Below are positions 2,265-38,694 of a DNA stretch of 64,000 nt, piece by piece (the stretch's first letter is position 1; each line of letters begins with the position of its first letter). A model generated the notes under the pieces. That model worked only from the letters and a program-made list of their open reading frames with translations, did not search any database and had not been told where the DNA came from. The DNA comes from an uncultured Lachnospiraceae bacterium. GTDB taxonomy: Bacteria > Bacillota > Clostridia > Lachnospirales > Lachnospiraceae. A program made the position numbers and the translations under genes. The stretch is from the NCBI GenBank assembly GCA_947625775.1, contig CANQPM010000002.1:124001-188000 (forward strand), in the 5' to 3' direction.

Positions 2265-2519
2265 GGGGGAGGTGAATGAGGACGAGCCAGTCAGATATAA
2301 TGTCTGCTGCGCCTGTAGTGGGAATGCGAAATTTTCTAATGCAATGCGTGTAGGTGTATTAATGAGGTCGTGGTCGTCGGGAGGTGACATCCGTGTCGCC
2401 GCCCGACTAAAATCGGCGTCCGTGCCGATTTTACCACTTGGTATCGAGCATTGCATAAGAAAATTACGCATTCCCACTACAGGCGCAGCAGACATTATAT
2501 CAGGCTGGCTCTGGTTATT
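2265..2519 (+). repeat. family A palindromic element, copy A1
   Basis: 64-nt arms 2284-2347 / 2448-2511 pair at about 60/64 positions. Two inner hairpins (2376-2407, 2409-2432). About 255 bp is nearly identical to 3732-3985. Confidence 0.93.
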
Positions 2520-3731: not shown

Positions 3732-3985
3732 GGGGGAGGTGAATGAGGACGAGCCAGCCAGATATAATGTCTGCTGCGCCTGTAGTGGGAATGCGAAATT
3801 TTCTAATGCAATGCGTGTAGGTGTATTAATGAGGTCGTGGTCGTCGGGAGGCGACGTCCGTGTCGCCGCCCGACTAAAATCGGCATCCGTGCCGATTTTA
3901 CCACTTGGTATTGAGCATTGCATAAGAAAATTGCGCATTCCCACTAATGGCTTGCAGACATTATATCAGGCTGGCTCTGGTTATT
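3732..3985 (+). repeat. family A palindromic element, copy A2
   Basis: Near-identical to 2265-2519 in the same orientation. The 3' arm has a divergent block (aatggcttgcagac vs acaggcgcagcagac) giving an internal loop. Confidence 0.93.
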
Positions 3986-9966: not shown

Positions 9967-9984
9967 GGTATGTATTAAGCGGTC

Positions 9985-10150
9985 GCCCGAGAAGGGGCAT
10001 ATTTCCCCTGCGGACATCGCTTGCGCTCAGTGGGAAACGTAGCGGTACTAAGCTCAATGGCGCTGTAAAAGGAGCTACGCTTTTACAGCTTATTTCGCTA
10101 AGTGCCGACGTTTCCCAAGGTCCTTAGGGGAAATATGCCCCTTCTCGGGC
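9985..10150 (+). repeat. family B palindromic element, copy B1
   Basis: Perfect 24-bp outer stem GCCCGAGAAGGGGCATATTTCCCC (9985-10008 / 10127-10150), TGGGAAACGT/ACGTTTCCCA helix, apical GCTGTAAAAG-GAGCTACG-CTTTTACAGC hairpin. Homologous to the reverse complement of 32187-32351. Confidence 0.95.
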
Positions 10151-10233
10151 TAGGTTTTTGAGAATGCTTGGATAATTAATTGGTGAAGTGGATTAGATTA
10201 ATTTTGAATGTAAAAAGTAATAAGGTGATGTAG

Positions 10234-14608: not shown

Positions 14609-14687
14609 GAATTTGTGCGAAATATACAAAAACGCGACTAGTGCGCAGTGCGAATCGTCGCTTATTTTGTATATTTCGCCCAAATTC
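14609..14687 (+). repeat. family C palindromic element, copy C1
   Basis: GAATTTGTGCGAAATATACAAAA / TTTTGTATATTTCGCCCAAATTC (22/23 paired) plus inner GCGAC/GTCGC. Flanks GTTTTC..CCG and CTACGTT shared with C2-C4. Confidence 0.9.
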
Positions 14688-14745: not shown

Positions 14746-14825
14746 GAATTTAGTCAAAATATATAAAATCGCGACTTGGTGCGCGATGCGAAACGTCGCT
14801 GATTTTATATATTTTGACTAAATTC
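14746..14825 (+). repeat. family C palindromic element, copy C2 (tandem with C1)
   Basis: GAATTTAGTCAAAATATATAAAATC... / ...GATTTTATATATTTTGACTAAATTC perfect stem; inner GCGAC/GTCGC; CTACGTTAT flank. Confidence 0.9.
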
Positions 14826-32186: not shown

Positions 32187-32351
32187 GCCCGAGCAGGATA
32201 TATATCCCATGAAGACCTTTGGGGAGCGTCGGCACTTAGTGAGACGAGCCGTAAAAGCGTAGCTCCTTTTACGGCGCAGCCGAACTTAGTGTCCGCTACG
32301 CTTCCCACTAAGCGCAAGCGGGTCTGAATGGGATATATATCCTGCTCGGGC
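32187..32351 (-). repeat. family B palindromic element, copy B2 (inverted relative to B1)
   Basis: Perfect 24-bp outer stem GCCCGAGCAGGATATATATCCCAT; internal sequence aligns to the reverse complement of B1; apical CCGTAAAAG-GAGCTACG-CTTTTACGG. Confidence 0.95.
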
Positions 32352-38468: not shown

Positions 38469-38548
38469 GAGTTTGGGTGAAATATACAAAACAAGCGACG
38501 ATTCGCATCGCGCACCAAGTCGCGGTTTTGTATATTTCGCACAAACTC
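38469..38548 (-). repeat. family C palindromic element, copy C3 (inverted relative to C1/C2)
   Basis: GAGTTTGGGTGAAATATACAAAA / TTTTGTATATTTCGCACAAACTC; inner AGCGACGATTCGCATCGCGCACCAAGTCGC; flank ATAACGTA. Confidence 0.9.
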
Positions 38549-38616: not shown

Positions 38617-38694
38617 GAATTTAGGCGAAATATATAAAATAAGCAGTGCCTTGCGCAGCACCGCACTGCGTTTTTATATATTTTGACTAAATTC
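38617..38694 (-). repeat. family C palindromic element, copy C4 (tandem with C3)
   Basis: GAATTTAGGCGAAATATATAAAA / TTTTATATATTTTGACTAAATTC; inner GCAGTGC/GCACTGC; flank ATAACGTA; 3' flank GAAAACATTCCACAATTACC matches C3 flank. Confidence 0.9.

Follow-up and report, generated by a model that had tools for sequence, protein, structure and literature searches.

Family B, a dispersed hairpin element of a small Lachnospiraceae clade whose outer stem is probably kept paired mainly by arm-to-arm copying in DNA

Family B, of which two copies (B1 and B2) lie in the window, i.e. the whole stretch of 64,000 nt analysed here, is most probably (roughly 0.6 by our estimate) a dispersed REP/MITE-like hairpin element in which pairing is kept mainly by DNA-level copying of one arm onto its partner. 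It is best classed as a new family of hairpin elements from a small Lachnospiraceae clade, some 166 bp long plus end motifs of about 12 nt, and is best explained as belonging to a group of two or more sister families, including TwoAYGGAY, with shared ends and different cores. On the same best explanation, the conserved part is the asymmetric core, the outer stem being required to pair and largely free in sequence. Regarding the mechanism, one strand would fold into a hairpin during replication, repair or mobilisation, and a polymerase would switch template and rewrite one arm from the other; changes, indels included, would thus enter both arms together. Since one arm appears to be mainly copied onto the other in DNA, covariation alone is here no proof of a working RNA. 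B would then be a clear natural case of textbook RNA covariation made largely by DNA templating, which bears on covariation-based RNA discovery.

The sequences and coordinates previously assigned to B1 and B2 were borne out on rechecking. Both copies are intergenic and their folding far exceeds that of shuffled sequences (z of -12.3 for B1 and -11.3 for B2). Their features, together with the two proposed sister elements of the window, are:

9985 to 10150, minus (conserved, putative sense strand): element B1, 166 bp; model R1 gives 181 bits on the minus strand versus 75.7 bits on the plus strand.
10126 to 10150, minus: B1 outer stem P1, 5' arm (minus sense), 25 nt.
9985 to 10009, minus: B1 outer stem P1, 3' arm, 25 nt, fully complementary to 10126-10150.
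10010 to 10015, minus: B1 internal loop a (2 nt) and P2 strand GGAC; partner 10120-10125.
10018 to 10025, minus: B1 mini-hairpin CGCTTGCG, in the place of which several other copies carry a hairpin of about 60 nt.
10031 to 10040, minus: B1 helix P3 strand; partner 10108-10117.
10062 to 10089, minus: B1 apical hairpin P6, arms 10062-10071 and 10080-10089.
10072 to 10079: conserved loop of B1 P6, GAGCTACG on the plus strand.
10151 to 10162, minus: B1 5' end motif beyond the stem; family consensus CCAAYAACCTA (minus sense), from the flank consensus of 97 copies.
9972 to 9984, minus: B1 3' end motif beyond the stem; family consensus GACCTCTTGCCA (minus sense), from the flank consensus of 97 copies.
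32187 to 32351, plus (sense): element B2, 165 bp; P1 arms 32187-32210 and 32328-32351.
2284 to 2511, minus: proposed sister element, with an Rfam TwoAYGGAY core at 2315-2479 (minus, 87.3 bits), an individual outer stem and the end motifs that B also has.
3751 to 3977, minus: proposed sister element, with an Rfam TwoAYGGAY core at 3782-3947 (minus, 95 bits), an individual outer stem and the end motifs that B also has.

Read along the conserved strand, the element runs from the CCAAYAACCTA end motif through P1 (about 25 bp), loop a, P2, P3, P4, loop b and P5 to the apical hairpin, and its 3' side then comprises a short third hairpin (CGCTTGCG), P1' and the end motif GACCTCTTGCCA. Loop a is a GA/GA internal loop in 67 of 99 copies and loop b in 93 of the 99. 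Some parts of P1 are constant, namely a terminal GCC(C), a central ATA and an inner CCC, the remainder being variable yet paired. A third hairpin of about 60 nt stands at the same position in L024, L026, L034, L042, L108, L118, L122, L124 and L144, and which loci carry it varies between species. That it could be an independent nested element was ruled out: in the source genome (G000) it occurs only within B copies, and it is therefore regarded as a variant arm of B. One copy of 94 nt (L220:2853-2946) has lost most of its core, with a perfect outer stem and intact ends.

In G000 (3.75 Mb), 41 distinct copies were located from 45 match rows, for a total of some 40 to 45 dispersed copies. Two close congeners, both rabbit-gut Lachnospiraceae, give at least 40 match rows each, namely G020, the contigs of which match the MAG Lapin-023__bin85, and G017, the contigs of which match Lapin-028__bin75. 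A third congener, G027, gives 32 rows, some of which are both strands of one copy, and holds at least 21 copies, the number examined. With a covariance model built from 69 copies, many hits were obtained in only four of the 38 genomes of the genus, G027 being the fourth, and three others among the 38 have a single hit each. A DNA search of phage and plasmid collections returned no B match. About 25 B sites are common to two or three species, i.e. constitute orthologous loci.

The earlier note described the outer stems of B1 and B2 as perfectly paired yet rewritten at 11 positions. The perfect pairing holds, over 25 bp in B1 and 24 bp in B2, but the count does not: in register, the two copies differ by five substituted pairs and one paired 1-bp indel, the figure of 11 being inflated by the register shift that affects an ungapped comparison. 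In the family alignment, B2 is one base pair short, the same pair being missing from both arms. The paired apical change (CTG/CAG to CCG/CGG) and the conserved apical loop are both present. Far from being absent, or from giving way to arms that vary independently, covariation is overwhelming across copies. When 69 distinct copies taken from three genomes are compared over 62 pairs, 98.7% of the cells pair, as against 87.1% in shuffles, with 495 doubly changed cells (shuffle mean 106) and double-sided changes at 42 of the 62 pairs; slid controls reach at most 46.6% paired and at most 90 doubly changed cells. In other words, the pattern seen between B1 and B2 is real, general to the family and far above chance. 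P1 is the most rewritten helix of B, and one of its pairs displays all four Watson-Crick types (GC 27, UA 17, AU 16, CG 6).

Very strong covariation is also what a functional structured RNA would leave, provided that it is transcribed and that its pairs are restored by ordinary compensatory mutation via G.U intermediates. We consider this explanation rather unlikely, even though the presence on one strand of two conserved internal loops of the GA/GA type, the higher score of the putative sense strand (the 181 versus 75.7 bits of B1) and the greater conservation of the elements relative to their immediate flanks speak for it, as do the near-exclusive covariation of P5 by transitions, as in RNA helices, and the 26 GU versus 3 AC cells of P3. 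Those GU cells come mostly from two columns, however, and P4b and P5 lean the opposite way (AC 20, GU 5). Besides, the P1 cells of 99 copies comprise 2419 Watson-Crick pairs, 21 GU, 14 AC and 10 others, that is 1.8% mismatches with no G.U bias (p=0.31 for GU versus AC). Selection on an RNA had been read from early A.C mismatches, and this reading was dropped, GU and AC being balanced in P1 once counted. The forty-odd copies are moreover dispersed in both orientations relative to genes, and B as a known Rfam family was discarded, none being matched at the gathering threshold. Conversions of loops to the complement of the opposite arm and paired indels, both described below, likewise tell against a structured RNA.

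At orthologous loci, P1 differs in place by 33 double versus 22 single changes in 773 pairs, as exemplified by L016/L145 and by the set L038/L065/L095. Loop a, which is unpaired in most copies, has become exactly complementary to the opposite arm in 11 of the 99 (about ten loci); its state varies between species in five orthologue sets (L013, L015, L038, L042 and L044), and in the G027 subfamily it is paired in most copies. At the apex, the asymmetric segment is the exact reverse complement of the opposite arm in L044 (G000) and L114 (G020), unlike in their G017 orthologue L073, which retains the common apical state, and the same conversion arose independently in L034a and L070. Indels paired in both arms are found in B2, L011, L018 and L072. 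Taken together, the orthologue changes, the loop conversions, the paired indels and the rare, unbiased mismatches point to arm-to-arm copying in DNA.

Of the two explanations offered in the earlier note, arm-to-arm correction by template switching is thus supported, namely by loop-to-complement conversion, paired indels and the lack of wobble bias. The other, a structure under selection, survives in a weak sense, in that the continued pairing of the copies and the conservation of their core at orthologous loci imply retention of a long hairpin. It gains nothing in favour of RNA from the covariation, which is not independent evidence because DNA templating also yields it, and which therefore fails to discriminate between an RNA and a DNA reading. 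As the cores are conserved at orthologous sites although their flanks diverge, selection on the structure of B is likely also at work and would account for retention of the hairpin. Template switching is an established cause of compensatory changes and has been described for RNA gene hairpins (PMC8794818). B resembles quasipalindrome correction and template-switch mutation in its homogenised arms, loop-to-complement conversion and multi-base compensatory changes (PMC8794818, PMC7202029), the paired multi-base changes and loop conversions being here polarised by orthologues; it differs in involving about 100 copies of one element, with a focus on the outer stem and loops that are otherwise conserved.

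The actual event is probably template switching, and not the renewed synthesis of one arm from the other in the course of transposition. The latter would have the outer stem remade at each transposition, one arm being re-synthesised from the other via a single-strand (DNA or RNA) intermediate, diversified, and near-static from then on. This is distinctly unlikely in our judgement, although three observations would fit it. In G027 copy pairs with cores at most 2% apart (mean 1%), 15% of P1 pairs differ on both arms. The double changes of P1 are transversion-rich (17/33), as compared with the single changes of P1 (4/22, p=0.022) and the double changes of the inner helices (3/41, p=4e-5). Most orthologous loci, finally, keep their own distinctive P1 across species. 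Against it, P1 also changes in place at orthologues, in the 33 double and 22 single changes reported above, and the intermediate and the enzyme are both putative. Under arm-to-arm copying, the transversion excess of P1 is a residual puzzle, as plain mutation-then-correction does not predict it.

In the apparently young G027 subfamily, change is about 15-fold faster in the outer stem than in the core, and 13 of 589 P1 pairs overall are mismatched. From the contrast between 15% in P1 and about 1% in the core, it follows that either P1 is rewritten much faster or conversion homogenises the core. Conversion between copies does seem to act as well, given that different loci carry extra hairpins at identical positions. 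A concerted-evolution account goes further, in that conversion would homogenise the core, the stem would escape at the edge of homology, and pairing would be a by-product of occasional conversion and arm correction. It accommodates the confinement of the extra hairpin to B copies in G000, its presence in L042 and not in L103/L072, and in L144 and not in L041, at the same core position, as well as orthologues in which many core sites change at once with P1 unchanged (L012/L147, L011/L105). It is nevertheless very unlikely, for conversion alone cannot move both arms of one locus to stems unique to that locus, as in the L038 set.

Regarding mobility, the copies probably spread by transposition in trans. 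B is unbiased with respect to gene orientation (42 ++, 35 --) and stands at no fixed distance from genes. A role as terminator or cis-regulator was rejected on these grounds, and a selfish or mobile repeat fits better. The Y1 HUH transposase was dropped as a candidate mobiliser, being uncorrelated with the presence of the element: there is none in G020, fragments only in G000, and one in G017, with a stop codon. A search for an autonomous element with B ends (at most three mismatches) gave only B copies, one of them core-deleted. No clean target duplication was found at B; two empty sites are not cleanly alignable and look like losses, and a flank search for further ones led to loci that are filled or rearranged.

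Hairpins of the REP/RAYT and IS200/IS605 systems are abundant intergenic imperfect palindromes, bulged and strand-asymmetric, with hairpin-flanking motifs. B is likewise an intergenic bulged palindrome with strand asymmetry and flanking motifs, but it is larger and its presence is untracked by any Y1 transposase. With bacterial MITEs, B shares a short, non-coding sequence, dispersal in both orientations and long inverted ends; it differs in that neither an autonomous partner nor a target duplication was found and in that its inverted ends vary in concert between copies.

The same genome harbours 16 copies of TwoAYGGAY (Rfam RF01731), to which the two other large inverted repeats in the window belong, all with the end motifs of B and with individually rewritten, perfect outer stems. 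The likeness thus comprises the end motifs, an outer stem perfect in each copy and a flank skew on the same strand, whereas the cores differ, B being devoid of the pair of AYGGAY hairpin loops. B lies below the RF01731 gathering threshold (43 bits), B1 and B2 being unreported in the window scan, and a search with RF01731 found nothing at E<=5 around B1 and nothing in ten further B loci. Tandem GA motifs were reported for TwoAYGGAY in the RMfam study (PMC4333381), and B has its two GA/GA internal loops. The literature consulted gives no function for TwoAYGGAY, CsrA binding having been proposed by one study. As their ends and their stem rewriting match those of B, the copies of this orphan family may be mobile hairpins, not regulatory RNAs.

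The most surprising part of the findings on B is the asymmetry of its flanks. The sign of the skew follows element orientation at 123 of 131 loci (B and TwoAYGGAY together), on a kilobase scale. On the sense strand, C exceeds G at 107 of 115 B loci (within about 110 nt) and at all 16 TwoAYGGAY loci (within 150 nt). Around B, its sign does not change from one side of the element to the other; the skew amounts to about -0.45 nearby and fades by 1.5-3 kb. Both GC and AT skew are concerned, in the window around 1.9 kb, 3.4 kb, 10.5 kb and 32.1 kb. On contig C2, 28.6% of the 400-nt windows near B or TwoAYGGAY have |skew|>0.4, versus 1.4% of those far away. The skew is visible at third codon positions in genes of both orientations, passing in same-sense genes from -0.39 near the element to +0.05 to +0.09 far from it, as judged with simple longest-ORF gene calls.

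In orthologue trios, and with modest counts, substitutions within 200 nt of the element are asymmetric (G>A 0.044 versus C>T 0.028, p=0.026; T>C 0.030 versus A>G 0.016, p=0.0014), those beyond 700 nt being strand-symmetric. In G027, whose B copies look young, the skew is weak. The ongoing substitutions and the weakness of the skew at young copies make the elements the likelier cause of the skew, as compared with an insertion preference. Two sites devoid of element still carry skew; they were rejected as proof that skew preceded insertion, both being probable element losses, because G017 has an element at the B2 locus (flank match) and one whose stem is that of the G020 copy. The skew would be accounted for if, at the element, DNA underwent opening, nick-and-gap repair or re-copying in a strand-specific manner. 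More tentatively, it is possible that B and TwoAYGGAY are foci of strand-specific DNA processing, which would both rewrite the arms and drive a mutation gradient over about 1-1.5 kb on each side, thereby shaping local skew. If the elements do cause the skewed flanks, this would indicate strand-specific processing at element sites and represent a little-described route for small repeats to shape base composition.

One B copy (L100:1545-1711) sits in a strong skew of opposite sign (+0.83), as if its interior had been inverted in place. In the window, a third type of hairpin, of about 80 bp, occurs in pairs (14609-14687 and 14746-14825; 38469-38548 and 38617-38694). Its ends resemble by eye those of B and TwoAYGGAY (AACGTA/GA...TC/GGACGG, the slashes marking boundaries), and it coincides with further skew extremes at 14.4 kb and 38.7 kb.
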